A stretch of 64,000 nucleotides of DNA, from contig JANFNE010000019.1 in the NCBI GenBank assembly GCA_024867545.1, positions 248,001 through 312,000 on the forward strand, in the 5' to 3' direction. Origin of the DNA: Phytopythium helicoides. Taxonomy: Eukaryota; Oomycota; Peronosporomycetes; Pythiales; Pythiaceae. The notes beneath the pieces were generated by a model. It was not told the origin of the DNA. It worked only from the letters and a program-made list of their open reading frames with translations, and made no database searches. Within the stretch, counting starts at the first letter, position 1, and each line of letters opens with the position of its first letter. The translations under genes were made by a program, and so were the position numbers. Of this stretch, positions 44,001 to 62,538 are shown in pieces.

Positions 44001-47000
44001 GGACAAGTGGCAAGTCAAAGATGCAAGTGACTCGACGGGGTCTGTCAATATGGTCGGCGCGGGCGGAGCATCTGCCCGCGCTGGTGTAGAGCTGTAGGAC
44101 TGGATTTGGACACTGGGACATTGGGACATTGGGACATTGGGACAAGTGGCAAGTCAAAGATGCAAGTGACTCGACGGGGTCTGTCAATATGGTCGGCGCG
44201 GGCGGAGCATCTGCCCGCGCTGGTGTAGAGCTGTAGGACTGGATTTGGACACTGGGACATTGGGACATTGGGACATTGGGACATTGGGACATTAGGACAA
44301 GTGGCAAGTCAAAGATGCAAGTGACTCGACGGGGTCTGTCAATATGGTCGGCGCGGGCGGAGCATCTGCCCGCGCTGGTGTAGAGCTGTAGGACTGGATT
44401 TGGACACTGGGACATTGGGACATTGGGACATTGGGACAAGTGGCAAGTCAAAGATGCAAGTGACTCGACGGGGTCTGTCAATATGGTCGGCGCGGGCGGA
44501 GCATCTGCCCGCGCTGGTGTAGAGCTGTAGGACTGGATTTGGACACTGGGACATTGGGACATTGGGACATTGGGACATTGGGACATTAGGACAAGTGGCA
44601 AGTCAAAGATGCAAGTGACTCGACGGGGTCTGTCAATATGGTCGGCGCGGGCGGAGCATCTGCCCGCGCTGGTGTAGAGCTGTAGGACTGGATTTGGACA
44701 CTGGGACATTGGGACATTGGGACATTGGGACATTGGGACATTAGGACAAGTGGCAAGTCAAAGATGCAAGTGACTCGACGGGGTCTGTCAATATGGTCGG
44801 CGCGGGCGGAGCATCTGCCCGCGCCGGTGTAGAGCTGTAGGACTGGATTTGGACACTGGGACATTGGGACATTGGGACATTGGGACATTGGGACAAGTGG
44901 CAAGTCAAAGATGCAAGTGACTCGACGGGGTCTGTCAATATGGTCGGCGCGGGCGGAGCATCTGCCCGCGCTGGTGTAGAGCTGTAGGACTGGATTTGGA
45001 CACTGGGACATTGGGACATTGGGACATTGGGACATTGGGACATTGGGACATTAGGACAAGTGGCAAGTCAAAGATGCAAGTGACTCGACGGGGTCTGTCA
45101 ATATGGTCGGCGCGGGCGGAGCATCTGCCCGCGCTGGTGTAGAGCTGTAGGACTGGATTTGGACACTGGGACATTGGGACATTGGGACATTGGGACATTG
45201 GGACATTGGGACATTGGGACAAGTGGCAAGTCAAAGATGCAAGTGACTCGACGGGGTCTGTCAATATGGTCGGCGCGGGCGGAGCATCTGCCCGCGCTGG
45301 TGTAGAGCTGTAGGACTGGATTTGGACACTGGGACATTGGGACATTGGGACATTGGGACAAGTGGCAAGTCAAAGATGCAAGTGACTCGACGGGGTCTGT
45401 CAATATGGTCGGCGCGGGCGGAGCATCTGCCCGCGCTGGTGTAGAGCTGTAGGACTGGATTTGGACACTGGGACATTGGGACATTGGGACATTGGGACAT
45501 TGGGACATTAGGACAAGTGGCAAGTCAAAGATGCAAGTGACTCGACGGGGTCTGTCAATATGGTCGGCGCGGGCGGAGCATCTGCCCGCGCTGGTGTAGA
45601 GCTGTAGGACTGGATTTGGACACTGGGACATTGGGACATTGGGACATTGGGACATTGGGACAAGTGGCAAGTCAAAGATGCAAGTGACTCGACGGGGTCT
45701 GTCAATATGGTCGGCGCGGGCGGAGCATCTGCCCGCGCTGGTGTAGAGCTGTAGGACTGGATTTGGACACTGGGACATTGGGACATTGGGACATTGGGAC
45801 AAGTGGCAAGTCAAAGATGCAAGTGACTCGACGGGGTCTGTCAATATGGTCGGCGCGGGCGGAGCATCTGCCCGCGCTGGTGTAGAGCTGTAGGACTGGA
45901 TTTGGACACTGGGACATTGGGACATTGGGACATTGGGACATTGGGACATTAGGACAAGTGGCAAGTCAAAGATGCAAGTGACTCGACGGGGTCTGTCAAT
46001 ATGGTCGGCGCGGGCGGAGCATCTGCCCGCGCTGGTGTAGAGCTGTAGGACTGGATTTGGACACTGGGACATTGGGACATTGGGACATTGGGACATTGGG
46101 ACATTAGGACAAGTGGCAAGTCAAAGATGCAAGTGACTCGACGGGGTCTGTCAATATGGTCGGCGCGGGCGGAGCATCTGCCCGCGCCGGTGTAGAGCTG
46201 TAGGACTGGATTTGGACACTGGGACATTGGGACATTGGGACATTGGGACATTGGGACAAGTGGCAAGTCAAAGATGCAAGTGACTCGACGGGGTCTGTCA
46301 ATATGGTCGGCGCGGGCGGAGCATCTGCCCGCGCTGGTGTAGAGCTGTAGGACTGGATTTGGACACTGGGACATTGGGACATTGGGACATTGGGACATTG
46401 GGACATTGGGACATTAGGACAAGTGGCAAGTCAAAGATGCAAGTGACTCGACGGGGTCTGTCAATATGGTCGGCGCGGGCGGAGCATCTGCCCGCGCTGG
46501 TGTAGAGCTGTAGGACTGGATTTGGACACTGGGACATTGGGACATTGGGACATTGGGACATTGGGACATTGGGACATTGGGACAAGTGGCAAGTCAAAGA
46601 TGCAAGTGACTCGACGGGGTCTGTCAATATGGTCGGCGCGGGCGGAGCATCTGCCCGCGCTGGTGTAGAGCTGTAGGACTGGATTTGGACACTGGGACAT
46701 TGGGACATTGGGACATTGGGACATTGGGACAAGTGGCAAGTCAAAGATGCAAGTGACTCGACGGGGTCTGTCAATATGGTCGGCGCGGGCGGAGCATCTG
46801 CCCGCGCCGGTGTAGAGCTGTAGGACTGGATTTGGACACTGGGACATTGGGACATTGGGACATTGGGACATTGGGACATTGGGACATTAGGACAAGTGGC
46901 AAGTCAAAGATGCAAGTGACTCGACGGGGTCTGTCAATATGGTCGGCGCGGGCGGAGCATCTGCCCGCGCCGGTGTAGAGCTGTAGGACTGGATTTGGAC

Positions 47001-47340
47001 ACTGGGACATTGGGACATTGGGACATTGGGACATTGGGACATTGGGACATTAGGACAAGTGGCAAGTCAAAGATGCAAGTGACTCGACGGGGTCTGTCAA
47101 TATGGTCGGCGCGGGCGGAGCATCTGCCCGCGCTGGTGTAGAGCTGTAGGACTGGATTTGGACACTGGGACATTGGGACATTGGGACATTGGGACATTGG
47201 GACATTAGGACAAGTGGCAAGTCAAAGATGCAAGTGACTCGACGGGGTCTGTCAATATGGTCGGCGCGGGCGGAGCATCTGCCCGCGCCGGTGTAGAGCT
47301 GTAGGACTGGATTTGGACACTGGGACATTGGGACATTGGG

Positions 47341-48530
47341 ACAAGTGGCAGGTCAATATGGTCGGCGCGGGCGGAGCATCTGCCCGCGCTGGTGTAGAGC
47401 TGTAGGACTGGATTTGGACACTGGGACACTGGGACATTGGGACATTGGGACATTGGGACATTGGGACATTAGGACAAGTGGCAAGTCAAAGATGCAAGTG
47501 ACTCGACGGGGTCTGTCAATATGGTCGGCGCGGGCGGAGCATCTGCCCGCGCCGGTGTAGAGCTGTAGGACTGGATTTGGACACTGGGACATTGGGACAT
47601 TGGGACATTGGGACATTGGGACATTAGGACAAGTGGCAAGTCAAAGATGCAAGTGACTCGACGGGGTCTGTCAATATGGTCGGCGCGGGCGGAGCATCTG
47701 CCCGCGCTGGTGTAGAGCTGTAGGACTGGATTTGGACACTGGGACATTGGGACATTGGGACATTGGGACATTGGGACATTGGGACATTGGGACATTAGGA
47801 CAAGTGGCAAGTCAAAGATGCAAGTGACTCGACGGGGTCTGTCAATATGGTCGGCGCGGGCGGAGCATCTGCCCGCGCTGGTGTAGAGCTGTAGGACTGG
47901 ATTTGGACACTGGGACATTGGGACATTGGGACATTGGGACATTAGGACAAGTGGCAAGTCAAAGATGCAAGTGACTCGACGGGGTCTGTCAATATGGTCG
48001 GCGCGGGCGGAGCATCTGCCCGCGCTGGTGTAGAGCTGTAGGACTGGATTTGGACACTGGGACATTGGGACATTGGGACATTGGGACATTGGGACATTGG
48101 GACATTAGGACAAGTGGCAAGTCAAAGATGCAAGTGACTCGACGGGGTCTGTCAATATGGTCGGCGCGGGCGGAGCATCTGCCCGCGCCGGTGTAGAGCT
48201 GTAGGACTGGATTTGGACACTGGGACATTGGGACATTGGGACAAGTGGCAGGTCAATATGGTCGGCGCGGGCGGAGCATCTGCCCGCGCTGGTGTAGAGC
48301 TGTAGGACTGGATTTGGACACTGGGACATTGGGACATTGGGACATTGGGACATTGGGACAAGTGGCAAGTCAAAGATGCAAGTGACTCGACGGGGTCTGT
48401 CAATATGGTCGGCGCGGGCGGAGCATCTGCCCGCGCCGGTGTAGAGCTGTAGGACTGGATTTGGACACTGGGACATTGGGACATTGGGACAAGTGGCAGG
48501 TCAATATGGTCGGCGCGGGCGGAGCATCTG
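47341..48530. repeat. Three satellite units with the same ~30-bp internal deletion
   Basis: At about 47351, 48251 and 48499 the unit reads GGCAGGTCAATATGGTC, skipping the normal AAGATGCAAGTGACTCGACG section. The deletion lies exactly between two GTCAA copies, which fits slippage or end-joining at 5-bp microhomology. The form occurs only in this interval, so it spread locally after arising once. Confidence 0.8.
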
Positions 48531-49939
48531 CCCGCGCTGGTGTAGAGCTGTAGGACTGGATTTGGACACTGGGACATTGGGACATTGGGACATTGGGACA
48601 TTGGGACATTGGGACATTAGGACAAGTGGCAAGTCAAAGATGCAAGTGACTCGACGGGGTCTGTCAATATGGTCGGCGCGGGCGGAGCATCTGCCCGCGC
48701 TGGTGTAGAGCTGTAGGACTGGATTTGGACACTGGGACATTGGGACATTGGGACATTGGGACATTGGGACATTGGGACATTAGGACAAGTGGCAAGTCAA
48801 AGATGCAAGTGACTCGACGGGGTCTGTCAATATGGTCGGCGCGGGCGGAGCATCTGCCCGCGCTGGTGTAGAGCTGTAGGACTGGATTTGGACACTGGGA
48901 CATTGGGACATTGGGACATTGGGACATTAGGACAAGTGGCAAGTCAAAGATGCAAGTGACTCGACGGGGTCTGTCAATATGGTCGGCGCGGGCGGAGCAT
49001 CTGCCCGCGCTGGTGTAGAGCTGTAGGACTGGATTTGGACATTGGGACATTGGGACATTAGCACAAGTGGCAAGTCAAAGATGCAAGTGACTCGACGGGG
49101 TCTGTCAATATGGTCGGCGCGGGCGGAGCATCTGCCCGCGCTGGTGTAGAGCTGTAGGACTGGATTTGGACACTGGGACATTGGGACATTGGGACATTGG
49201 GACATTGGGACATTAGGACAAGTGGCAAGTCAAAGATGCAAGTGACTCGACGGGGTCTGTCAATATGGTCGGCGCGGGCGGAGCATCTGCCCGCGCTGGT
49301 GTAGAGCTGTAGGACTGGATTTGGACACTGGGACATTGGGACATTGGGACATTGGGACATTGGGACATTGGGACATTAGGACAAGTGGCAAGTCAAAGAT
49401 GCAAGTGACTCGACGGGGTCTGTCAATATGGTCGGCGCGGGCGGAGCATCTGCCCGCGCCGGTGTAGAGCTGTAGGACTGGATTTGGACACTGGGACATT
49501 GGGACATTGGGACATTGGGACATTGGGACATTAGGACAAGTGGCAAGTCAAAGATGCAAGTGACTCGACGGGGTCTGTCAATATGGTCGGCGCGGGCGGA
49601 GCATCTGCCCGCGCTGGTGTAGAGCTGTAGGACTGGATTTGGACACTGGGACATTGGGACATTGGGACATTGGGACATTGGGACATTGGGACATTAGGAC
49701 AAGTGGCAAGTCAAAGATGCAAGTGACTCGACGGGGTCTGTCAATATGGTCGGCGCGGGCGGAGCATCTGCCCGCGCTGGTGTAGAGCTGTAGGACTGGA
49801 TTTGGACACTGGGACATTGGGACATTGAGACATTGGGACATTGGGACATTAGGACAAGTGGCAAGTCAAAGATGCAAGTGACTCGACGGGGTCTGTCAAT
49901 ATGGTCGGCGCGGGCGGAGCATCTGCCCGCGCCGGTGTA

Positions 49940-49943
49940 GAGC
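49940..49943. repeat. Target site duplication, left (GAGC)
   Basis: GAGC precedes the TGTGGTGG end of the 5' LTR and is repeated at 62292-62295 directly after the CCACCACA end of the 3' LTR. If the last A of the LTR is counted with the target, the duplication is 5 bp (AGAGC). The satellite unit is cleanly split: ...GGTGTAGAGC before the element and GAGCTGTAGGACTGG after it. Confidence 0.85.
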
Positions 49944-50688
49944 TGTGGTGGAGCGCGCTGGGGAAAAGCGAAGATCCGCGCGCTCCTGATGGGAAGATCG
50001 GCAACGACTACGGCAACGGCGGCGAGTGTCCATAGGTGTACACACTCATCTGTGTGGACCACCTCAGGAGGGGACCCGAGGATCCAGCCATCATTCGTGG
50101 GTCCTCCAGGGATCGCTTGATGACGGCACACGCATCGGCCCTGGCATTGATTACGCAACTCGGACCAGACGATCTTCACACACAACAGGTACATAGGCGT
50201 GCAGGAGCAGGTACAAGGATGGGTAGGCACAGACACGTAGGTAAACAGTCAGTCGAGAATTCACCTTGGGGCATCAAGACGTCTTCCTTGTTCTCCTCTG
50301 CTCGACCAGCTCCCCCCAACTCCACGCCCGATAAGAGGGTTAGAAGACTAACAAAGGACTTTGGACTACGCTTTGGGTGGCTAGGCGAGGATCGCCAGTC
50401 ACATCTATCCTTTGGCGCGCCAGGACTAGGATCCTGCGCAGCGGCCGCCGATCGCCTATCGACTGCCGCACAAACCACCACCGCGGAGTGAAGAGCATCC
50501 ACGCCGCGGCTTCGAGCCCCTCAGCCTTGCCTCCACGCATCCACCAGAACCCGTGAAGATCGCAACCGCCCACCGGCGGGTACACAACGTGACTCTTTCC
50601 TACATCTACCGGGGTAACCCCTCCGACAGCCGGTGTCGGGCGCGCTGGTGGCTGGTCCCTCCGTTTTCGGGAGGACCACCCCACCACA
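49944..50688 (+). repeat. 5' LTR, 745 bp
   Basis: It begins TGTGGTGG and ends CCACCACA, an 8-bp terminal inverted repeat. The matching 3' LTR lies at an exact offset of 11,603 bp and is the same length. I saw no difference on reading both copies. The gag ATG follows the last LTR base directly, so the whole 5' leader of the genomic RNA would be encoded by the LTR. A compact hairpin near the right end (50623-50639) lies in the presumed R-U5 part. I could not place the transcription start or poly(A) site. A 151-codon plus frame and a 108-codon minus frame in the LTR are not supported as genes. Confidence 0.95.
50623..50639. other. Hairpin in LTR (also at 62226-62242)
   Basis: CCGACA and TGTCGG pair perfectly around the 5-nt loop GCCGG. 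Just upstream is a second small inverted repeat, GGGG-TAA-CCCC. The position, 50-80 bp from the LTR end, would fit a structured leader or poly(A)-region element; the role is inferred only. Confidence 0.5.
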
Positions 50689-52983
50689 ATGGTGCGCATG
50701 CCCGGATCTTCCAGCTCTGGGAGTGATGCGACAGTCAAGACTGAGCCAGGGGCTCCTCCACCAGCGGACTCAGGGTCGACGCTGGTGAATCAAGAATCAA
50801 CCAGACCCTGCGAAGGTCAGGCCTCCGGGGGGACGTCTGACGTCGTAACTAAGGACGAACTCGAAGAGAAGAGTCCAGTCCCCCCTGTAGCCCCGAAAGG
50901 GGCAATTGCGGGTCCTGCTACCCTGCAGGATCCGCCATCGGGTCTAACTCGACCCGATCGAGGCAGAAAGCCTCGTCAAGATGCATCCAAGTCGACGACT
51001 AAGCCGACGTCGAAGAAGACGACCAGGAGTGCCAGTACCCGCAAGAAGCTGCGGGCTCCGGGCCTAACGGATCCGGAATCCCAGCCCGTCACAGGATCGA
51101 TGTGGCGATCCAGAAGCGATGCCGAGCTGGAGTTCGCCGCTCAGCGCCATGAGTTGTTCGAGTTCCTAGACCAGGATCCGTTGATGCAGCTCTTGCAGCT
51201 AAGGCTCCTCAGTGATCTTCAAGGCCCGATCCCCGCTCCGACGACCGGGACGTCGAAGCTGGATCTCGTCAAAGCAACCTTACGCGTCCTGGAGGATGCC
51301 GGACTGGTTGCGGGACCGTTTGAAGCGCACGAAGTCTTCGAGATGACAACCGAGGAGATCAAGACTGCTTATTACAAGCTCCAGGATCTGCTGCGACCGC
51401 TGGTCGGTCAAGTCAAGGCACCGCCGGCTGTGACGTCTGCTGGAAGAGTGTCAGCAGAGTCTTCGCCTTACCAGACTGGAGTCTCAGGTTCCAGCTCTAG
51501 ATCCTCGTCCGAACCCACGCGAATGTCGCTTGGACCCGCTGTCGTATCCACATTCCATCCACGACCAACACCACTGGCCTACACTGGCCAACATTGGGAG
51601 CCGACAAGGCAGCCGCGGGCTGCACAGCAGGCAGGTGTTGGCGGAATCACGAACATTGGCGCAGGAGACCCACAGATCGCCACCCTAATGGAACAATTTG
51701 CAGCGATCCTGGGATCTCGACGCCAAGATCCGGTTGCAACGACACCTGAAGCAGATCACTCAGACGTGGACATGGAATCCGCCGACTCAAGCCATGAGTA
51801 CGATCCTGACGATCTCGACGGCGGCCCGATGGCGACCCGCGTAGTAGCGACTGCGACCACGCCAGCATTGACGGCCCCTCGTATGAGGACATCAGCGGTC
51901 TCCGACCTCAAAGAGTTCTCCGGCAGGGACGGAGACGAGGATGGGGCGAGAGCGTGGCTAAGCAAAGCACAGTCAGCCTTCAGCCGAGATCAAGCTGATG
52001 AAGACGAGCGTTGCCTCGTATTCGGTAATCTCCTGACAGGCCCTGCGCGCAACTGGTACCGGCAGCTGAGCCGATCAACCCGCAGATCCTGGCCAAACTT
52101 GTACGAGCATTTCCAGGTGCAATACTGTGGGCGCGGCACATCAGTAGCTCGCCAATACTACCATGCGCGTCGCCGCCCTGACGAGACACCGTGGGAGTAT
52201 CTCTTCCGCTTGAATGTTGCAGCCCTCCGCGCGAAGATCAAGGTCAAAGACGGCACGGCGGAAGTCCGCCGGGAACACGTGGAGCACTTCATCGATACCC
52301 TCGAAGATCCGGACCTAGGAGCCCGTCTCACACCTCTGCGTCTTGAGGACGCAGATGCGTTGGAAGAAACCCTGCGTGCCTTACAGCGAGCTGAAGCGCG
52401 GCTAAAGAAGCCAGGACCTAAGCATCGGCCGAAGCCGGTCCCACCGCCCTCAACTCCAAAACCGGCAGCTGCGTCACGAGCAGTTCGAACGGTGAAAGTG
52501 GCGGTCGACAACAACAGCTCTGGGAGTGATTCAGGGTCCTCGGATGATGACGGTGATCTTCGTCGTGTGTACATGACCGCCACAGAGCCTCAGAAGGAGT
52601 CCCAAGCGTCGAAGAGCCTGACGCCAGCCCGCGAAGATCGGATGCGAGAAGGGTGGGCCGAGGGTGATCAAACTCAGCCAGGCCTCACGAACGGACAGGC
52701 CGCCCCGAATTCAGGACCTGATAAGTTCCGCCGGGAGCGCTGCTCGCACTGCGGATCCCAAAAACACACAGACTTGGGATGTTGGAGACGGCTCACGTGC
52801 CAGAAATGCGGGAAGCGTGGACACCCGACCGACCGCTGCCTCTTCGTCTGCCGCGGCTGCGGGGAGCTTCATGACATTGGCCGTTGTCCGATGGAAGAGT
52901 TCTACAACCTCGTCCGTCAATGGTACGATCCAGCGAAGCACGCCGGCATGTTGCCCGCCAACGCCGAGAAGATGTTAAACTAG
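50689..52983 (+). CDS. gag: Gag polyprotein (capsid and nucleocapsid with three zinc knuckles)
   Basis: 764 codons encode the structural protein of the retrotransposon particle. Residues 1 to ~130 are low complexity, rich in Ser, Pro, Thr, Lys and Arg. Residues ~405-540 match the pattern of the retrotransposon Gag capsid domain, with RAWLSKAQSAF, LLTGPARNWYRQL, and an ETPWEYLFRL segment near 500. A Ser/Asp-rich acidic stretch (SSGSDSGSSDDDGD) lies near 607. The C-terminal nucleocapsid has three knuckles: CX2CX4HX4C at 685-698 and 704-717, and a shorter CX2CX3HX4C at 721-733. The ATG used is the first base after the LTR and has a good context (ACAATGG); a second in-frame Met is at codon 4. The stop codon TAG at 52981 directly follows the GTTAAAC slippery heptamer. 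The frame is intact from end to end. Confidence 0.93.
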   Translation: MVRMPGSSSSGSDATVKTEPGAPPPADSGSTLVNQESTRPCEGQASGGTSDVVTKDELEEKSPVPPVAPKGAIAGPATLQDPPSGLTRPDRGRKPRQDASKSTTKPTSKKTTRSASTRKKLRAPGLTDPESQPVTGSMWRSRSDAELEFAAQRHELFEFLDQDPLMQLLQLRLLSDLQGPIPAPTTGTSKLDLVKATLRVLEDAGLVAGPFEAHEVFEMTTEEIKTAYYKLQDLLRPLVGQVKAPPAVTSAGRVSAESSPYQTGVSGSSSRSSSEPTRMSLGPAVVSTFHPRPTPLAYTGQHWEPTRQPRAAQQAGVGGITNIGAGDPQIATLMEQFAAILGSRRQDPVATTPEADHSDVDMESADSSHEYDPDDLDGGPMATRVVATATTPALTAPRMRTSAVSDLKEFSGRDGDEDGARAWLSKAQSAFSRDQADEDERCLVFGNLLTGPARNWYRQLSRSTRRSWPNLYEHFQVQYCGRGTSVARQYYHARRRPDETPWEYLFRLNVAALRAKIKVKDGTAEVRREHVEHFIDTLEDPDLGARLTPLRLEDADALEETLRALQRAEARLKKPGPKHRPKPVPPPSTPKPAAASRAVRTVKVAVDNNSSGSDSGSSDDDGDLRRVYMTATEPQKESQASKSLTPAREDRMREGWAEGDQTQPGLTNGQAAPNSGPDKFRRERCSHCGSQKHTDLGCWRRLTCQKCGKRGHPTDRCLFVCRGCGELHDIGRCPMEEFYNLVRQWYDPAKHAGMLPANAEKMLN
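50690..50707 (+). promoter_or_regulatory. Candidate primer binding site overlapping the gag start codon
   Basis: One base after the LTR comes TGG, as expected for a site complementary to a tRNA 3' CCA end. The 18 nt starting TGGTGCGCATG are followed by bases that fit the conserved C61 and pyrimidine-60 of a T-arm on the complementary strand. I could not identify the tRNA. The T and G of this TGG are also the second and third bases of the gag ATG at 50689. Confidence 0.45.
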
Positions 52984-53020
52984 GACGCTCGCTGGGTTGG
53001 AATCCAGTGCGGGACGAGCG
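52974..53020 (+). promoter_or_regulatory. Programmed -1 ribosomal frameshift signal at the gag-pol junction
   Basis: GTTAAAC at 52974-52980 is placed so that gag reads TTA AAC and then TAG. Shifting back one base gives CTA and the open protease frame. GTTAAAC is a known slippery heptamer in arteriviruses. After a 5-nt spacer (TAGGA), CGCTCG at 52986-52991 pairs with CGAGCG at 53015-53020, and inside it CTGG (52992-52995) pairs with CCAG (53004-53007) around an 8-nt loop. Heptamer, phase, stop codon and spaced hairpin all agree. The function is inferred and the efficiency unknown. Confidence 0.8.
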
Positions 53021-56000
53021 GTCTGAAGTTTGCATCTATGCATATGTGGAACGATCATCCCGAGATGCAGTTAGCGTGGAGCTAACTTCCAAGGATGGTA
53101 ATGCATGTGATCTACGTACCCCCGACTTGGCTGCCGTATCCAGTCTACGCTTGAATGATGAATTCAATCGTCAGTCCGCGACGATGACCGTAGAGTTGCT
53201 GCCGGGAGAATCCCGCGGCTACTGGAAACACCACGCTCCTGATAAGTGGTTCAAGCAGGCGAAGGCCACCGGGAAGATCAACAATGAGAAGGCGCAAATC
53301 CTCTTTGACTCAGGCGCGGAAGTCTCGATCCTAGACACCGACTTCGCTCGCAAGGTAGGATGTTACGTCGACGGGAGTCAGCGTCAAGAATGTGTCGGGA
53401 TCGGAGAGAACACGTACATGACGGACGGACGCACGAAGATCAAGGTCACCCTGGCAGGATCTCTGGTGTACTATTGCCAAGTGTGGGTGGGCCGTCTTGC
53501 GGGGCAAGATGCCATCCTGGGGATGGACTTCATGGTACCGGCCGGCGTCCGACTCGACCTGGCCGACGGGTCAGTCTGTCTCCCAGACGAAGTAAGGATC
53601 CGACTACAAGGAAGACGCCAGCTCTTCAGTTCTAAAGCACGTCTGGTCACCCCCGACTCATTCCTGTCGATAGCACCTGGTGATTTTGCCGAGGTCATGA
53701 CCAGACCATCGCCGGGAGACAAGCAAGCGTTGTGGGTTACACGCGGTAAGAACTGGGTCGCAACGGTCACCAAAGGCTTGGGCCGCACCCGTTACATCAG
53801 GATCACCAATGTCGGCGAAGAAGAAGTCAAGCTTGACCGCCTGCAGCGGATTGGGATCTGGATATCAGGAGGACACATACCACGTCTGCCGGGCTTTGTG
53901 TCCGTCGGGTCAAATAGATACCGCGAGTGGCAGAATCTTGCCTACAGTGCCACAACGGACCAACAATCGCGCGATAATGATGCGGGAGACGACGAAGTAC
54001 CGAAGACTGAGAAGGTGTCATACCCCACTCCGGAAGGAATCCTCGAGAGACCATCACCGGCGGTAGCCGCAGTAGTCCGAAGCGCTGAGGATCACATAGT
54101 TCCCACTCAGGAGGATCGAAACGAACAGACCAGAGAGCAGTCACCGCAGATCGACGAGGCGGTCTACTACCACAAGGGCGGCGAACTCTTCGCTGAAGAC
54201 ATCGAAGCTCAGATGGCAATCTTGCCAGAGGTCACGCCAGGCACGGACGAAGTGAAGATCGAGGATATTCAGGTTGGAGACCCCGGCGTCAACACGATCG
54301 AAGAGATCGATCAGTTGCGATCAATAATCTGGGATAGACGGCACTTGCTGATGGGGAAAGGGAATGCACTCCCTCCAAAGGCCAAAGGAGCGGTGTGTGA
54401 CATCGATGTCGGCAATGCGAAGCCGGTTGCACAACGTGTCCGAAGAGTTCCGCCGCAGTTCCGCGAGAAGGTCGCCGAGCTTCTCAAGGGGTTACTCTCG
54501 GCGAGGATCGTCCAGCCGTCGACGTCACCCTGGGCTTCACCCATCGTGGTGATCGTGAAGAAGAACGGAGTCGACATCAGGCTGTGCATCGACTACCGAC
54601 TAGTTAACAGCCTGACCCAACTCATGGTGTACCCGATGCCAATCGTGAACGACCTGCTCGAAGACCTTGACAAAGTGCTGTGGTTTTGCTCGCTCGACAT
54701 GGCCAGTGGATTCTGGGTGGTGGAGATGACCCAAAGGGCTCGCGAGATATCAGCCTTCATCACTCCGTTCGGGCTCTTCGAATGGAACCGAATGCCCTTC
54801 GGACTGAAGAACGCGCCCCAGATTTACCAGAGGCTTATCGACAACACGCTGTACGGATTCATGAAGATCGCTCCAGCGACGCTTGAGAACACTGACAGGG
54901 ATCCCGCCGGTGAAGACACGCCTCCTAAGGACGTCTTCACTAGCGGGGTGCCGGATGTAAGCACGAGGTCGTCGGTACTAGGGAGGCGCTCATATATTGA
55001 TGACATCCTGGTCACCAGTGGATCGTGGGAAGAACTGTGCGCAAAAGTAAAGAGGTTGCTCGACGCTTGCGACAAATGGAACTTATCCATCAGCGTTCCC
55101 AAGAGTTACTGGGGGCGTCGTCGGGTAGAATACTTGGGACACCAGGTTACCATTGAAGGACTCGAAGCGCATCCGAAGAATTTGGACGAGCTGGTGCAGT
55201 TGCCATTTCCGCGCAAGCTTAGAGGGCTTCAGTCCTTCCTCGGGAGTCTGAATTACTACCACCGGTTCATCGAAGACTTTGCGGTCTACGCCGCCGCGCT
55301 CTACGAACTGCGAGAGACCGACTTCCATGCCATGCCACCGGAGGATCAGCTACACGAAGATCCGACATGGGGGCGGGCCGTCGTTGCTTTCAAGACCCTG
55401 AAGACGAAGCTCTCACACATGCCTTTCCTCAAGCACTTCGACAAGAATCGGCCAGCAGTGCTGGTGATCTATGCTGGGGAATGGGCGGTCGCCGCCGCCT
55501 TGGTACAAGATCATGATGGGACATTTCATCCGACGAAGTTCTGCAGTCGAACTCTGAAGCCCAACGAGCTGAACTACAGCGTAGCAGAGAAGGAAATCTT
55601 GGCGCTACTGAGGGCGCTAGACAACTGTTTCAACATGCTGATCGGGCGGCCGGTGAAGGTATTAACGCGGCATACAACAATGGCTTGGTTGTGGAGATCG
55701 CACGGCCTGCAGGGCCGGCTCGCACAGTGGGCAGCGATACTCTCTCCGTGGACACTGGAAATCGTCAAGTGCTCGAAGGGCGAAGAGGAGATTCTTGGAA
55801 CGTTGGCGGCTTGCATTACACCTCGAGGCCAAGTCGACGAAGCGTTGGTTGCAATCGCACCAAAGAAGAAAGCTTTCAAGTCAACCGCAATGCCAGTGCC
55901 AACGGTGCTCCCCGCAGAGCGACTGCTAGTGGTGAGCTTCGACGGATCCGCCCGGACCAAACGAGGAGGTGGAGCTTTCGGTGCCATCGTCTGGCAGCTT

Positions 56001-56567
56001 CCTGAGTGGGAAATACTGGACGCAGCCTCCGAATATCGCCAAGATCTCACAGTCAACGAAGCAGAGTACCGCGGTCTCCTTCTTGCGCTGGATCTCCTGG
56101 AAACCCAAGGTCGAAGTCGACTTGTCATCTGCGGAGATTCCAACCTCGTAATCAGGCAGCTGACGGGCGAGATTGATTGCAAAGCACCGGGCTTACAACT
56201 CCTGCGTCAGCAGGCACTGGACCGTCTTCAATCTTGGGACCGCACAGAGTATCTTCACGTCAAACGTGATTGGAACCGGAGCGCAGATTTCCTGGCAGGG
56301 ACGGCCTTACAACGAGAAGAAGGCGTACGAGTGCAAGCGGAGTCGACGACGCAGGATCTTAAAGACCTAAACCGACTGGCAGAGATCTTGAGACCAATGG
56401 AGTCAGAAGAGGTCGCGAAGGTCACAGCAGTAACCACTCGGGGCGCCGCTCAGCCAACAAGTCGAAAGAGGTGGTCAACGAAGAGGTCGTTAAGAGGATG
56501 CGAATGGAACGCATCAAGACTGCTCAAGACGAGGAAACATGGATCCTCCACTTCAAGGCATTCCTGA
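52980..56567 (+). CDS. pol: Pol, first part: aspartic protease, reverse transcriptase, two RNase H domains
   Basis: This frame lies -1 to gag and is open across the gag end; the first Met in frame is at 52884, but entry by frameshift at 52980 is more likely. Protease: DSGA active site at 53307-53318 and the paired ILGMDF motif near 53515. Reverse transcriptase: catalytic Asp in LDMASGFW at 54696, FGLKNAP motif near 54798, YIDD at 54993-55004. Between NAPQIYQRL and YIDD there are ~50 residues, more than the usual short spacing. The classical Gypsy RNase H follows (~55449-55700), but its active-site Asp is replaced (VIYAGEWA). A second RNase H (~55926-56320) has the full set: Asp in FDGSA (55941), Glu in AEYRG (56064), Asp in CGDS (56136), Asp in SADFLA (56286). 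The frame ends at 56565-56567, in the linker before integrase, about 130 bases after the likely frame change. Confidence 0.92.
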   Translation, partial: LGRSLGWNPVRDERSEVCIYAYVERSSRDAVSVELTSKDGNACDLRTPDLAAVSSLRLNDEFNRQSATMTVELLPGESRGYWKHHAPDKWFKQAKATGKINNEKAQILFDSGAEVSILDTDFARKVGCYVDGSQRQECVGIGENTYMTDGRTKIKVTLAGSLVYYCQVWVGRLAGQDAILGMDFMVPAGVRLDLADGSVCLPDEVRIRLQGRRQLFSSKARLVTPDSFLSIAPGDFAEVMTRPSPGDKQALWVTRGKNWVATVTKGLGRTRYIRITNVGEEEVKLDRLQRIGIWISGGHIPRLPGFVSVGSNRYREWQNLAYSATTDQQSRDNDAGDDEVPKTEKVSYPTPEGILERPSPAVAAVVRSAEDHIVPTQEDRNEQTREQSPQIDEAVYYHKGGELFAEDIEAQMAILPEVTPGTDEVKIEDIQVGDPGVNTIEEIDQLRSIIWDRRHLLMGKGNALPPKAKGAVCDIDVGNAKPVAQRVRRVPPQFREKVAELLKGLLSARIVQPSTSPWASPIVVIVKKNGVDIRLCIDYRLVNSLTQLMVYPMPIVNDLLEDLDKVLWFCSLDMASGFWVVEMTQRAREISAFITPFGLFEWNRMPFGLKNAPQIYQRLIDNTLYGFMKIAPATLENTDRDPAGEDTPPKDVFTSGVPDVSTRSSVLGRRSYIDDILVTSGSWEELCAKVKRLLDACDKWNLSISVPKSYWGRRRVEYLGHQVTIEGLEAHPKNLDELVQLPFPRKLRGLQSFLGSLNYYHRFIEDFAVYAAALYELRETDFHAMPPEDQLHEDPTWGRAVVAFKTLKTKLSHMPFLKHFDKNRPAVLVIYAGEWAVAAALVQDHDGTFHPTKFCSRTLKPNELNYSVAEKEILALLRALDNCFNMLIGRPVKVLTRHTTMAWLWRSHGLQGRLAQWAAILSPWTLEIVKCSKGEEEILGTLAACITPRGQVDEALVAIAPKKKAFKSTAMPVPTVLPAERLLVVSFDGSARTKRGGGAFGAIVWQLPEWEILDAASEYRQDLTVNEAEYRGLLLALDLLETQGRSRLVICGDSNLVIRQLTGEIDCKAPGLQLLRQQALDRLQSWDRTEYLHVKRDWNRSADFLAGTALQREEGVRVQAESTTQDLKDLNRLAEILRPMESEEVAKVTAVTTRGAAQPTSRKRWSTKRSLRGCEWNASRLLKTRKHGSSTSRHS
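56438..56470 (+). other. Frame change between RNase H and integrase
   Basis: Protein-like sequence in the RNase H frame ends with VTAVTTR near 56437. Protein-like sequence in the integrase frame begins by about 56465 (KSKEVVNEEVV). The shift equals loss of one base, or gain of two, between them. A GGGG run at 56440-56443 is a likely place for a real or sequencing indel. I found no X-XXY-YYZ heptamer in phase. Confidence 0.6.
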
Positions 56568-58120
56568 GAGGCGAGTTCAGAGAACTGACCGAGGCGGAAG
56601 TGAAGACTTACAGCCTGCTGAGCGATCAGTACGAGGTTGACGACTCCGACTTGTTGTATTACTGCCCACCTGCTAGTGACTCGGCCGAAGATCGCGGACA
56701 GCTGATGCGGCTTGTGATCCCTGACACCCTGAAGAGCGACGTACTGCACCATTACCACGCAAGCTTGGAAGGAGGACACCAGGGAATAGGTCGCACGTAC
56801 CAGCGCGTGAAACGATATTTCCATTGGCGAGGCATGTACCGCGATGTTCAGCGATACGTCGGCGAGTGCACTGACTGCGAGACTGGCAAGGGTAAACCCA
56901 CCATACGAGGATCTTCGCCTGGGAACATCCGAGCGACGTACCCGTTCCAGGTCGTGGCGATGGACCACATCCCTTCGTTGCCCAAGTCCTATCGAGGCAA
57001 CACAGAACTCTTGATCTGGGTAGATGTATTCTCCGGCTTCGTCATTGCAAAAGCGAGCTCATCACGGACGGCCCAAACCATCGCTGAAGCGTATGAGTCG
57101 AGTGTCTTCAGGCGATTCGGCGCCAGCGAGGCTATTCGCCACGACCGAGAGCCTGGGTTCATGTCCGATTTCTTCAAAGCATTCAACCGGATCGTTGGAC
57201 AACGCCAGCGAGCCACCATGGCATACAGGCCACAGGCCAACGGAACCGCCGAGCGCATGGTGCAAACTATCACACGCGCCATCAAGATGTTCGTTGCGGA
57301 TGGACAGCAGAAGGATTGGGATGACTACGCGGAGAGGCTGACGTTCGCGTTAAACACCGCAGAAGACCGAGTGAGGAAAGAGACGCCATTCTACCTTGTA
57401 CATGGTTGGGATCCCCGCTCAACGCTTGAGGCGACGATCGCCGTAGGCAGCACACGGCGGCAAGACGTGGAGCCCCGGAGGTGGAGGTACCACATCCAGC
57501 GCCATTACCAACACGCGAGGGCACAAGTGAACGACCTCCTCAAGGCCGCAATAGCCGAGCGCGCCGAAGCCGCGGCCGAGCAGGCCACCACCCACGGCAT
57601 CGAGGCCGGTGCGCGCGTGTGGCTCTACATCGACCGCGTCAAAGTCGGGTACGCTCGCAAGCTGGCGCACATGTGGCACGGTCCCTTCCGCGTCGCGGAG
57701 ATGATCGACCAGCATGCAGCACGTCTGGAAATCCAGGGCTCCGAGTACCGGCTATTTCCAACTGTTCATGTCTCCAAGTTGAAGTTGGTGCGTGACTATC
57801 CCGATCGTCCAGCGGTCGCCCTCGAGGTCGACCCAAGCAATCGCTTCGATTTTGACGAGGAGCTCCTACCAGAGGATAGCTGGACGAGTACGTCGAACGA
57901 GGGAGAGTATGAGGTGGAGAAGATCCTCGACGTGCGTACTGGACGGCGAACGCGCTATGGGCGCAGCCTACGAGAGTTTCTAGTTCAGTGGAAGGGCTAC
58001 GACGACCCCAGTTGGGTCGACGAGGCCGATCTCAGTTGCGGCGCGCTACTGTTCGAGTTCCTGAGGGATCGAACCAGCAAGAGCCGCCTGAGCGCCATGC
58101 AAACCCATGAAGAGGCGTAG
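56471..58120 (+). CDS. pol: Pol, second part: integrase with C-terminal chromodomain
   Basis: This is a 549-codon segment counted from a GTG at 56471; the frame is open from 56363 and shows no good ATG start, so it is a continuation of Pol in another frame. The zinc-binding HHCC region is HHYHASLEGGHQG...CTDC (~56748-56880). The catalytic core has Asp at 56963 (MDHIP), Asp at 57143 (HDREPGF) and Glu at 57251 (NGTAERM); the second Asp and the Glu are 36 codons apart, the classical DD35E. A GPFRV-type integrase C-terminal domain follows (~57600-57800). A chromodomain lies at 57905-58040, with EYEVEKIL, FLVQWKGY and a WV(D)E motif, keeping two cage aromatics. Chromodomains in this family bind methylated histone tails and steer insertion to heterochromatin. 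Relative to the RNase H frame this reading frame is -1; no slippery heptamer was seen at the switch. Confidence 0.9.
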   Translation: MVNEEVVKRMRMERIKTAQDEETWILHFKAFLRGEFRELTEAEVKTYSLLSDQYEVDDSDLLYYCPPASDSAEDRGQLMRLVIPDTLKSDVLHHYHASLEGGHQGIGRTYQRVKRYFHWRGMYRDVQRYVGECTDCETGKGKPTIRGSSPGNIRATYPFQVVAMDHIPSLPKSYRGNTELLIWVDVFSGFVIAKASSSRTAQTIAEAYESSVFRRFGASEAIRHDREPGFMSDFFKAFNRIVGQRQRATMAYRPQANGTAERMVQTITRAIKMFVADGQQKDWDDYAERLTFALNTAEDRVRKETPFYLVHGWDPRSTLEATIAVGSTRRQDVEPRRWRYHIQRHYQHARAQVNDLLKAAIAERAEAAAEQATTHGIEAGARVWLYIDRVKVGYARKLAHMWHGPFRVAEMIDQHAARLEIQGSEYRLFPTVHVSKLKLVRDYPDRPAVALEVDPSNRFDFDEELLPEDSWTSTSNEGEYEVEKILDVRTGRRTRYGRSLREFLVQWKGYDDPSWVDEADLSCGALLFEFLRDRTSKSRLSAMQTHEEA

Positions 58121-58345: not shown

Positions 58346-61300
58346 TCACGGTGAAGCAGTGCCGCGGCGTCGCGCGCGCAAGAACTTGTCGCGCAGACGC
58401 GGAAGCTGATAAGCAGGATGACCCTGGATATCGGCGCGATATTGCAAACGCCAAGGATCGGCTCGGTCTAACGCTGCCAATGACCCAACTAAGCTGCCGG
58501 GCAGTCGGGGATCCTCGACTGGGTGCCATTCGCGCGCCTTGATGCGCGGTGCCAGATGAAAGAAGAAGGGATCTAGCAGAATGTCGAGGTCGCAATAACC
58601 TCGATGGATAAGGTCGACGATCTCCGCGAGGATCACCCTCCACGCGGCTCCCATGTGAGACCGACGGTCTTTCCGTCGCTTCACGTAGGCCACCAAGTCG
58701 GCGTCCAGCCGACCGCCGGTGGGGATCGCGAGGTGATGCGTTCCCTCCCACAACGCCTTGACCCACGAGCCGACGAAGTTGGTGTAAAGCGCCACTAGTG
58801 GTGCGAACACCACATCCAGCGGATCAAAAGTCAGCGGAGTCACCGCAACCGTCATCGAATCCCATGGCTGAGTGGTGTACAACGCGCTGATCGCGCTCCA
58901 AGTGAGCAGTCTGGGGTCGGCCGTGACGCGCGGCACCTTGGCTGGGAAGATCCACCCGCTGATAGGCACGAGCTTAAGGATCCACTCCACATCGACAGCA
59001 CCCCGGAATGATGCTGACACTTCCAACACCGGCCAGGGCTCGACTTCGGACTCCAGGAAGGCCACGGGACTGCGCGCTCCTGGGATCGACACGAAGCTGG
59101 AGGGTGTGTCGCTCGCGTCACTCGGGACGAATGACGATGAAGAGCTGCCGGAAGGTGACGGAGACGCGCTCCCATCAGGATCCGCGTAGTCACCACTGCG
59201 AACAGGTGACACTGAGCGGTGAGCGGCCTGCGCCCCGCCTGACACCGATGCGTGGGCCGACGCTCCGACCGCAAACGTGACGGTACGGCCACGCGCTCCA
59301 CGACGGTCCGCTCTTGGCGCACTGCCCGCGGTGAGCACCGCTGCCACCGTAGACACCGCCGACCCTGCGTCCGTGGCCGCCGCGCGCTCAGCTAGCGACA
59401 CGGAGCTGGACACTGTGATGGGAAAGGAGGATGAGGCGGGTGCGACCGCCGGCCGGCTTGTGACAGGCGCATCCCCTTGCGTGTCATCTGTTGACTGCGC
59501 ATCACCCGCTGGCTCGTCCACACCAAGGAAAAAGGCCGCTGCAGACAGTGCAAGAGTCAGATGAGGGAGATGAGATCAAAACGACCACGTGAAGCCACTC
59601 ACCAGGATCTGCGTGCATGCGCAGCGCACGGCGGGGAGCGCCACGAACCAGAGCTGGCCGAGGAAGGCGGTATGTGCCGGGTAGACCAGCGACTGGCAAC
59701 GCTTCCTCTGGGGCACGGCGTTGGATCTTGGCGGGACGTGAAGAAGGCGTGAATGACGGAGGCTCATGGCCACGGCTCGCACCTCGCTCGGAAGCAGATG
59801 TGACAGGCGGAGAAGATTGGTCCTGGTAGACGGCAGAACCCACGTCGTCCGCAGGGACCACCGCGGTCGGTGCCATAACCGACTCATGGCTATCGGGCGG
59901 CGATCCCGGCTGAGTGAGGCCCAATCTGCGCTCAGGCACGGGAGAGTCATCGGCAGGTGAAGAAGGCTTCGGACTGCCGTCGGGCGACGAGTCGGAACTG
60001 TAGACCACAATAGGCGAAGAGGGTGGCGGCGTCCGAGCCGGCGAGCCATCAGATGCTGGTGGACTAGACGGAGACCGGCTGAGGCGCGCGATGAGTAGCG
60101 ACAGCCGCTGCTGCAACGCGTCCCGACTCTGCTGCACGTCATGCAGCTCGGCCTGCAGAGTGTCTTGCACGGCCTTAGCATCTTGACAGCGTGAACGCAG
60201 CGAGTCGCGCTCGAGAGCCACCGTACGGAGCAGTTCGCGAGTAACATCATGCCCGTGTTGTTCAGCGTCGAGACGTACCCTCACCGACCGAAGATCGGCC
60301 TCGAGAGTACTCTGAGTTGCCGCCAAGTCTTCGATGCGACGACGCAAGATCCGGCGCGCGTCGCGACCCTTCAATACGCTCTCTTCTGAAGCAGCTGCAC
60401 TGACCCGCAGGCGAGACAAACGCCGTTGAAGATCTTGTCTGGTTGCCTGAAGAGCCGACACCTCGGCTGCAGCATTCGCGCTTGCCTCGTCAGCGCAACG
60501 CACCGTTTCCCGCGCTCGGTGTACCTCGGCGACAGCATCCGTAGCCGCTGTTTGCAGTTGCGCGACGGTGGCCCGCAGACGGCCCACTTCTGCTCGAAGA
60601 TCAGCACCTGGGGGCGGAAGCGGAAGGTTGTATGGCTCGCGAGCAGCGAGCTGCGACTCCAAGTCGGCGATCCGTGCTAGCAATCGCTCTTGCTCAGGAC
60701 CAGGCGTGAGCACGTCTCGGTCATGGATCCACACGGTACTGACTGGATCCTCATCATCATGGGGTTGACGACGTCGCTGCTCAAGCTCGGCTACGCGAGA
60801 CTCCAAGTCGGACACGTAGGCTTGGCGGCGTTCACTCTCCACGACGTCCGTACATTCGGCTGCTTCCATCGCAGATAGGCGAGCTTGTAGCGCATCCGCG
60901 CGGTCACGACCGGCCCGCGCGTCTTCAAGACTGGCCTCCAGTTCGCGTATCACTTCTTCGAGCCGCCGTCGTTCCGTCGAGCTCTCCGAGAGTCGCTGCA
61001 TTGCGCGCTGGAAACGTTGGTCACAGTACCAAGCGAAGCCTTCACCTTGACGCAAGATCTCGGTCCCACGGCGATGAAGATCAGCCGCGTGCTCGTGTAG
61101 CCGACGATGTACTGCCTGGAGGGCCATGTGGTCGGCGTAGATGCTGTCGGCCGCGCCGGCAAAGGACGTGAGTGCCGCGACCGCATCAGCCGCCGACCGC
61201 ACAAGGATCGGGGAGGCCAGGGTATATGGTGTTGTCGGCGACCACGGAGCAGATGCGTTGCACACCGAGCACCCGCGGACGACCTCCTCAGGTTGTAATG

Positions 61301-61430
61301 GCGGGTCGGCGAGCCGCTCGCCGGGAGTTCTGTCGTCGCGCGTGGCTCCTTGACCAGGATCGTTGAAAGAAGGATCTTCAAACTCGTCGGTCGACTCGTC
61401 GAGGACTTCAGTAGCAGAGCCCTCCGACAT
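58346..61430 (-). CDS. Antisense two-exon gene inside the retrotransposon: coiled-coil protein of ~1,006 aa, unknown function
   Basis: Exon 1 is 61430-59603 and exon 2 is 59538-58346, joined in frame across a 64-nt intron, giving 1,007 codons including TGA. The chosen ATG at 61430 has an ACCATG context and lies just inside the element; the frame stays open for 59 more codons into the 3' LTR. Residues ~1-90 are acidic (DESTDEFEDPSFNDPGQ). Residues ~150-450 form a long heptad-rich coiled coil (RRLEEVIRELEASLEDA, SDLESRVAELEQRR, LLARIADLESQL), ending before a Ser/Pro/Asp-rich tract at ~450-560. After the exon junction (ADP|AAFFLGVDEP) comes another Ser/Ala-rich stretch, then a globular C-terminal part (~780-1006) with many Trp, Pro and aromatic residues (WILKLVPISGW, VDLIHRGYCDLDILLDPFFF). 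No match to Gag, Pol, Env or any named domain is apparent. It runs opposite to gag-pol and converges on it. It may be an accessory gene of the element or a captured host gene. Confidence 0.8.
59539..59602 (-). other. 64-nt spliceosomal intron in the antisense gene
   Basis: The minus strand reads CCTG|GTGAGT at the donor (59602 downward) and CTGCAG|CGGCC at the acceptor (59539), with a branch-like CATCTGACTC 20-25 nt before the acceptor and a pyrimidine-rich stretch between. Removing it joins the two long minus-strand frames in phase (G|CG codon). Without splicing the upstream frame stops at 59502. The length fits oomycete introns, like the 68- and 83-nt introns of the neighbouring bZIP-type gene. 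Confidence 0.85.
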
Positions 61431-61480
61431 GGTGTCAGAGAACCACTGCGGCGTCGTGCTTGGACTGCTTCGGTGCATCG

Positions 61481-61497
61481 GGGAAATTGGCGCAATG
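61481..61497 (-). promoter_or_regulatory. Possible oomycete core promoter (INR/FPR-like) for the antisense gene
   Basis: The minus strand has CATTGCGCCAATTTCCC. The CAATTTCCC part fits the flanking promoter region consensus MAWTTTNYY in full. The CATT before it fits only part of the initiator YCAYTYY, and spacing is about one base long. It lies 51 nt upstream of the ATG at 61430, the expected distance for an oomycete start site, and between the LTR and the gene. Confidence 0.45.
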
Positions 61498-61535
61498 TTC
61501 CTCGCGCACACACAGCTGGCCTGCGCGTACGCGAC

Positions 61536-61546
61536 GAGGGGGCGGC
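61536..61546 (+). promoter_or_regulatory. Polypurine tract before the 3' LTR
   Basis: GAGGGGGCGGC lies directly before the TGTGGTGG start of the 3' LTR. It is a G-rich tract with a single internal C and is the expected plus-strand primer site for reverse transcription. Confidence 0.7.
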
Positions 61547-62291
61547 TGTGGTGGAGCGCGCTGGGGAAAAGCGAAGATCCGCGCGCTCCTGATGGGAAGA
61601 TCGGCAACGACTACGGCAACGGCGGCGAGTGTCCATAGGTGTACACACTCATCTGTGTGGACCACCTCAGGAGGGGACCCGAGGATCCAGCCATCATTCG
61701 TGGGTCCTCCAGGGATCGCTTGATGACGGCACACGCATCGGCCCTGGCATTGATTACGCAACTCGGACCAGACGATCTTCACACACAACAGGTACATAGG
61801 CGTGCAGGAGCAGGTACAAGGATGGGTAGGCACAGACACGTAGGTAAACAGTCAGTCGAGAATTCACCTTGGGGCATCAAGACGTCTTCCTTGTTCTCCT
61901 CTGCTCGACCAGCTCCCCCCAACTCCACGCCCGATAAGAGGGTTAGAAGACTAACAAAGGACTTTGGACTACGCTTTGGGTGGCTAGGCGAGGATCGCCA
62001 GTCACATCTATCCTTTGGCGCGCCAGGACTAGGATCCTGCGCAGCGGCCGCCGATCGCCTATCGACTGCCGCACAAACCACCACCGCGGAGTGAAGAGCA
62101 TCCACGCCGCGGCTTCGAGCCCCTCAGCCTTGCCTCCACGCATCCACCAGAACCCGTGAAGATCGCAACCGCCCACCGGCGGGTACACAACGTGACTCTT
62201 TCCTACATCTACCGGGGTAACCCCTCCGACAGCCGGTGTCGGGCGCGCTGGTGGCTGGTCCCTCCGTTTTCGGGAGGACCACCCCACCACA
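61547..62291 (+). repeat. 3' LTR, 745 bp
   Basis: Same length and, as far as I can read, same sequence as the 5' LTR at 49944-50688. It ends CCACCACA and is followed by the GAGC target duplication. On the minus strand it lies directly upstream of the antisense gene, so it may supply enhancer or promoter activity to it. Confidence 0.95.
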
Positions 62292-62518
62292 GAGCTGTAG
62301 GACTGGATTTGGACACTGGGACATTGGGACATTGGGACATTGGGACATTGGGACATTAGGACAAGTGGCAAGTCAAAGATGCAAGTGACTCGACGGGGTC
62401 TGTCAATATGGTCGGCGCGGGCGGAGCATCTGCCCGCGCCGGTGTAGAGCTGTAGGACTGGATTTGGACACTGGGACATTGGAACATTGGGACATTGGGA
62501 CATTGGGACATTGGGACA
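62292..62518. repeat. Satellite array remnant right of the retrotransposon
   Basis: The remnant starts GAGCTGTAGGACTGG, the exact continuation of the unit cut at 49943. It contains the rest of that unit, then one further full core with the GCGCCGG variant and a final run of the 8-bp block, one copy of which is mutated (GGAACATT). The array ends at GGGACAATTGGGC. The first four bases are also the right target duplication. Confidence 0.95.
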
Positions 62519-62538
62519 ATTGGGCATTCTCCTTTATA

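Follow-up and report, generated by a model that had tools for sequence, protein, structure and literature searches.

The window, by which we mean the whole 64,000-nucleotide stretch of Phytopythium helicoides DNA analysed here, contains a Ty3/Gypsy LTR retrotransposon of 12,348 bp with a Chronos-like architecture. On the minus strand, between the end of the integrase/chromodomain frame (58120) and the start of the 3' LTR (61547), the element holds a predicted gene of two long exons; the coordinates bear out an initial annotation that had located such an antisense gene downstream of pol and before the 3' LTR. The features are, in window positions:

49940..49943, unstranded: left target-site duplication, GAGC, from the sequence at the LTR edge
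49944..50688, plus strand: 5' LTR, 745 bp, with ends TGTGGTGG...CCACCACA, identical to the 3' LTR
50689..52983, plus strand: gag ORF, 764 aa, Retrotrans_gag
50690..50708, plus strand: candidate primer binding site, TGG... directly after the LTR, overlapping the gag start (from sequence)
52884..56567, plus strand: pol ORF with protease, RT, Gypsy RNase H and a second RNase H (RVT_3)
56471..58120, plus strand: integrase with C-terminal chromodomain, 585 aa, a separate frame in the window copy
58346..59538, minus strand: exon 2 of the antisense gene including the stop codon, from sequence
58349..59095, minus strand: conserved C-terminal helical domain (WExxH ... CDLDILLDPFF ... PWRLQ ... HPA), from alignment, selection and model
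59539..59602, minus strand: predicted intron of 64 nt, GTGAGT...CTGCAG, phase 1, from sequence and comparison of copies
59603..61430, minus strand: exon 1 of the antisense gene, 609 codons plus 1 nt, from sequence
60078..61193, minus strand: residues 80-451 of exon 1, predicted to form long, coiled-coil-like helices (AlphaFold2, low overall confidence)
61431..61546, minus strand: leader of 116 nt, from the 3' LTR to the first-listed start codon
61533..61546, plus strand: candidate polypurine tract GACGAGGGGGCGGC, adjoining the 3' LTR
61547..62291, plus strand: 3' LTR, 745 bp, 745/745 identical to the 5' LTR
62292..62295, unstranded: right target-site duplication, GAGC, from the sequence at the LTR edge

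The Pfam matches in pol (RVT_1, 3.2e-22; RT_RNaseH, 2.5e-20) correspond to a Gypsy RT with its native RNase H, which is followed by a match to RVT_3 (7.4e-14), a putative second RNase H of the archaeal/plant type. A chromodomain (PF00385) is found at residues 480-530 of the integrase ORF, with 31.9 bits against a cut-off of 25.1. In another copy of the element, C24 (copies are named here after contigs of the same genome), a single frame of 1,748 aa is present where the window copy has the integrase in a separate frame, and the window pol frame is therefore broken after the RNase H part and ahead of the integrase part. The break lies at 56450-56567, before the integrase, despite the identical LTRs. 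The element is inserted into a minisatellite with units of ~155 bp, which extends over 44104-49946 and about 62291-62526, and the left part of which comprises 37.8 copies with an inner 8-bp ATTGGGAC repeat.

With nucleotides 59602-59539 removed, the two exons of the antisense gene are in frame and the predicted spliced product has 1,006 aa, exactly the two minus-strand frames and 64-nt intron first proposed for this locus. With an alternative in-frame ATG at 61478, which C24 and C75 also have, the product would be 1,022 aa long. When the surroundings of the exon junction were scanned for GTRNGT..YAG pairs with a spacing of 45-110 nt, only two were found to restore the frame: one of 64 nt (59602/59539) and one of 94 nt (59602/59509), with the donor in common. 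It had also been proposed that the gene has its own promoter, but a scan with an oomycete Inr/FPR consensus gave 10/15 matches, a score reached by 383/500 shuffles, so that the signal does not rise above the shuffled background.

Neither exon has a Pfam match above the cut-off, and the bZIP family is absent from the matches of both exons at E<=1. The AlphaFold2 model of exon 1 (3 sequences, pTM 0.28) predicts long helices at residues 80-221, 273-390 and 397-451, followed by disorder; these helices make the earlier description of a coiled-coil protein plausible, but the model is weak. The C-terminal domain is modelled as all-helical (pLDDT 72, pTM 0.74), and a comparison of this domain with PDB structures gave no convincing relative.

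The C24 copy is 96% identical to the window in exon 1 and 97% in exon 2. It has its own target duplication (GTAG) and its own LTR pair (745/746 aligned bases identical, compared with 745/745 in the window), and gene and intron are therefore present in separate insertions, in keeping with the initial annotation, which had regarded the intron as retained within the element. Among the other copies, C75 is 83-90% identical by piece and broken by frameshifts, C26 is 72% identical in exon 2 and has the last third of exon 1 only, with one stop, and C21 has part of exon 2 only. The intron at the homologous site measures 64 nt in the window, 63 in C24, 63 in C75 and 77 in C26, with GT and AG kept, and two of these four intron-bearing copies (C75 and C26) are broken elsewhere.

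Identical columns between C26 and the window amount to 31/68 in the intron interior, 112/150 at the adjoining end of exon 1 and 75/168 at the start of exon 2. Between the window and C24 the intron has 0 substitutions in 63 aligned bases, and the synonymous divergence of the exons is 0.10-0.13. The intron is part of a block of low divergence (59740-59447) with 3 substitutions in ~300 nt compared with 124 in ~3,250 overall, which may reflect gene conversion or constraint; the identity of the two introns within this block counts against a simple neutral-intron picture for this pair. The C26 copy is a mosaic relative to the window, with a synonymous divergence of 0.33 in gag and of more than 1.1 in the later integrase part and exon 2, which suggests recombination between element families; a similar 3' LTR is absent from the C26 stretch examined.

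The protein appears to be conserved by selection. Pairwise dN/dS values (Nei-Gojobori) between the window and C24 are 0.197 for exon 1, 0.123 for exon 2 and 0.041 for the C-terminal domain, the last from 3 nonsynonymous and 23 synonymous changes. On the sense strand of the same pair they are 0.236 for gag, 0.128 for pol (first 930 codons) and 0.109 for the integrase, and the antisense exons fall within the range of these genes. The corresponding values between the window and C26 are 0.192 (exon 1 end), 0.145 (exon 2), 0.076 (domain), 0.161 (gag) and 0.029 (integrase part). Judged from the substitutions between the window and C24, purifying selection acts strongly on the C-terminal domain, and the earlier suggestion that the protein has been kept for a purpose gains from the values of 0.04-0.20 between the window and C24.

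The gene is linked to a clade of elements. Integrase matches in the genome, 82 in number, were joined into 73 loci where they were fragments of one insertion; 14 of these are at least 57% identical to the window integrase, 30 are 43-51% identical and 29 are at most 31% identical. We counted a pair where an antisense match lies on the opposite strand and within 4 kb downstream of the integrase. The best 79 of 191 integrase candidates and the best 50 of 63 antisense candidates were scored, the antisense matches were cleared of duplicates from a single gene and of the shortest fragments, neither the matches of the exon-1 search nor those of a further search (a single match, counted already) were used, and the counts are lower bounds. 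A homologous gene downstream was found at at least 36 of the 44 integrase loci with 43% identity or more (at least 13/14 in the upper class and at least 23/30 in the class of 43-51%). At the 29 loci with at most 31% identity, the antisense domain gene was found at none among the matches listed, a count in which a very divergent gene would be missed.

The initial annotation had named stops throughout the frame, or loss of the segment, in other copies as the pattern that would speak against the gene. The gene is instead carried by most of the 44 related loci, in some of them in broken form, and 8/44 have no homologue among the matches listed. In the 3.3 kb inspected at C72, no antisense ORF of at least 120 aa with the domain lies downstream of the integrase. 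In the 3.3 kb inspected at C28:298150-301400, a Chronos-type integrase is followed by an 841-aa ORF on the sense strand, which we take to resemble a transposase, with no antisense gene match.

More divergent families (C86, C28/C66, C2/C12b and C28:387k) have an antisense gene in the same place and with the same C-terminal domain at 33-41% identity. C28/C66 and C2/C12b agree in the position of a phase-1 intron that follows 'ELKEL' in the coiled-coil part and measures 61 and 70 nt; an additional break before the last exon is found in both. In the comparisons of C28 with C66 and of C2 with C12b, dN/dS of the antisense exons is 0.20-0.44 on few changes, and that of the integrase is 0.230 and 0.068, respectively. 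A sister group has integrases 45-48% identical to that of the window, and three of its loci were examined. In C35 and C70 the antisense gene is a single frame, of 908 and 920 aa, with no intron, and in C36 two antisense frames suggest an intron; C35, C70 and C36 match the domain profile with 59.6, 50.9 and 26.1 bits. Since C35 and C70 have one intronless frame, the intron itself is not essential.

The occurrence of such genes in many related elements makes an accessory role for the element probable. Our preferred explanation, to which we assign a probability of about 0.72, is that the antisense gene is spliced and truly belongs to a Chronos-like Ty3/Gypsy element as an accessory gene. Transcription would start in or near the 3' LTR and run leftward, and the conserved signals suggest that the host spliceosome would remove the short intron. 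The mRNA would encode a protein of ~1,000 aa, predicted to have coiled-coil-like helices at the N-terminus and a helical domain at the C-terminus, with a disordered linker between them. The element would move via its sense genomic RNA, which the spliceosome would not cut at the complement of the intron, and the intron would be copied intact in each cycle; we infer that it survives because the splice signals are present in the genomic RNA in complementary form only. The purifying selection and the distribution of the gene over the clade suggest that the protein may serve the spread of the element itself. We speculate that it acts in trans, most likely as an oligomeric regulator or cofactor in transcription, silencing or nuclear steps. 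In layout the gene comes closest to the plant antisense ORFs, HBZ/APH of HTLV and the antisense homing endonuclease genes described below.

The domain is also found outside the elements. Searching oomycete proteomes, as had been proposed from the window sequence, yielded 7 matching proteins in Phytophthora and Peronospora (E down to 7e-33), which may themselves belong to elements, and a further search returned 8 proteins, of which P0008 and P0009 were new; the identity of the domain to that in other oomycete species is 34-42%. The P. helicoides genome itself has at least 23 domain loci that have no related integrase closer than 4 kb; contigs C57, C90 and C68 account for 20 of these. One of the remaining three, C48:43494, lies ~0.5 kb from an LTR that is 90% identical to that of the window and is probably an element fragment; C57:497669 and C68:1129059 have stops. 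Gene structure was examined for seven of the 23, all on C57 and C90, and the other 16 are known by their coordinates or were not analysed as genes. The seven are single frames, most with a coiled-coil-like N-terminal part, and the two stretches that hold them have no gag, pol or integrase matches. Their neighbours presumably resemble methionine synthase, a U-box protein, a cyclic-nucleotide-gated channel and a transporter. Domain genes are clustered at C57:495-519k, C90:1155-1178k and C68:1129-1164k with no integrase nearby, and the C57 and C90 clusters have neighbours in common and appear to be two versions of one segment, duplicated or divergent allelic.

These loci raise the alternative that an ancestral Chronos-like element captured a host gene of the stand-alone family together with its intron and in antisense orientation. 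The number of integrase-less loci, the ordinary-looking host genes beside those that were read, and the match between the element and stand-alone profiles (97.5%, E 6.9e-12) are all consistent with such a capture. However, the seven stand-alone genes lack the intron, and a database search with one stand-alone protein returned one relative. In a maximum-likelihood tree of the domain, which is unrooted, four stand-alone genes and P0010 form a group with a support of 96, which adjoins the intronless element families (79), an arrangement that domestication fits at least as well. The Phytophthora and Peronospora proteins group with the window family and C86a in this tree; the split that joins them with the other coiled-coil-intron families has a support of 83, and the finer order one of 41-44. 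We consider capture rather unlikely.

The antisense frames could also be real and unspliced, with exons 1 and 2 encoding two proteins or being joined by a frameshift. This would agree with the single intronless frames of C35 and C70, and in the window copy the unspliced exon 1 frame indeed stays open across the intron to 59504. In C24 and C75, however, the unspliced frame runs into a TGA within the intron, and the GT and AG are kept while the length of the intron varies (63/63/64/77). The coiled-coil-like and C-terminal parts, moreover, lie in one frame in C35, C70 and the Phytophthora protein P0002, and translation without splicing is in our judgement unlikely.

A third alternative, raised as a possibility for plant antisense ORFs in the part of PMC7264820 drawn on here, is that the protein is incidental and that the antisense RNA pairs with the genomic RNA as double-stranded RNA, thereby tuning silencing. 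The constraint is at the level of amino acids, as the few nonsynonymous changes in the C-terminal domain indicate, and the domain is recognizable in other oomycete species, which makes a role of the RNA alone very unlikely. That the frames are chance or remnants of a non-functional insert is suggested by the decayed copies (C75, C21, C26 exon 1 and C86a) but is extremely improbable in view of the selection and the presence across the clade.

The accessory-gene explanation may be extended to a wider scenario, which we offer tentatively as a possibility. Chronos-like oomycete elements would carry a lineage-defining antisense gene, the spliceosomal introns of which would survive reverse transcription owing to the orientation of the gene, and the host would have domesticated this gene at least once into the clustered intronless genes on C57, C90 and C68, possibly to compete with the elements or to restrict them.

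The part of PMC7264820 consulted describes the function of antisense accessory genes in LTR retrotransposons as unknown. The family found here constitutes a clear system, with many copies in one genome, a conserved domain, intronless sister elements and relatives outside the elements, and the intron provides a natural marker that separates antisense mRNA from genomic RNA or DNA. It allows testable questions to be asked: whether the protein works for or against the element, and whether antisense orientation keeps introns in retroelements in the long term.

Chronos elements are oomycete Ty3/Gypsy elements that combine a Gypsy RT and its native RNase H with another RNase H, of the archaeal/plant type, an integrase and a chromodomain, and number 233 per Phytophthora genome on average, with a range of 3 to 1,555 (PMC5348765, in part; numbers from Table 1). 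We liken the window element to Chronos by architecture, as it has the same RT, RNase H, integrase and chromodomain, and a putative second RNase H by its RVT_3 match (compared with the same part of PMC5348765). Neither 'antisense' nor 'intron' appears anywhere in the main text of that paper. The gene described here, if present across the group, adds a gene to Chronos elements. In searches of an open-licence library, we found no description of an intron-bearing antisense element gene from an oomycete.

Antisense additional ORFs (aORF-3R) have been described in plant and fungal LTR elements, including Grande (gene23), RIRE2, Retand, PvRetro13 and Boty; the protein of Grande is nuclear and that of PvRetro13 has an SMC domain (sections of PMC7264820 and PMC11963269). 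Like the window gene, they lie between pol and the 3' LTR on the opposite strand and are present in most copies (same sections). They are conserved like other genes of their elements, and so is the window family, with the gene at at least 36/44 loci and a dN/dS between the window and C24 of 0.04-0.20 compared with 0.11-0.24 for gag, pol and integrase. Unlike aORF-3R, the window gene resides in a Chronos-like element, has exons without a Pfam match above the cut-off, and has relatives outside elements. The consulted sections of the two papers contain no mention of an intron that we could find, and 'intron' occurs 0 times in the main text of PMC11963269.

HBZ of HTLV-1 and the APH genes of HTLV-2/3/4 are antisense genes near the 3' LTR with spliced transcripts, which suppress sense transcription (from part of PMC10186651). 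The window gene resembles them in orientation and location, and its splicing is predicted from sequence. It differs from HBZ and APH in that its protein is much larger, its intron lies between two long coding exons and it has no bZIP match, although the APH proteins also lack a bZIP domain (same part of PMC10186651). Unlike HTLV, the window element has no env ORF that we could see.

The initial annotation had looked for precedent in plant elements. Antisense genes are indeed known there, but this view was too narrow, since spliced antisense genes occur both in HTLV and in group I introns (parts of PMC10186651 and PMC9548176). In myxomycetes, group I introns carry antisense homing endonuclease genes with a spliceosomal intron of 47 nt, which is removed in vivo (PMC9548176, in part). 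That system differs from the one described here in being a ribozyme intron in rDNA, which homes via a DNA double-strand break and involves no LTR element; the likeness is that of a mobile element with an antisense protein gene that is interrupted by a spliceosomal intron (PMC9548176, same part).
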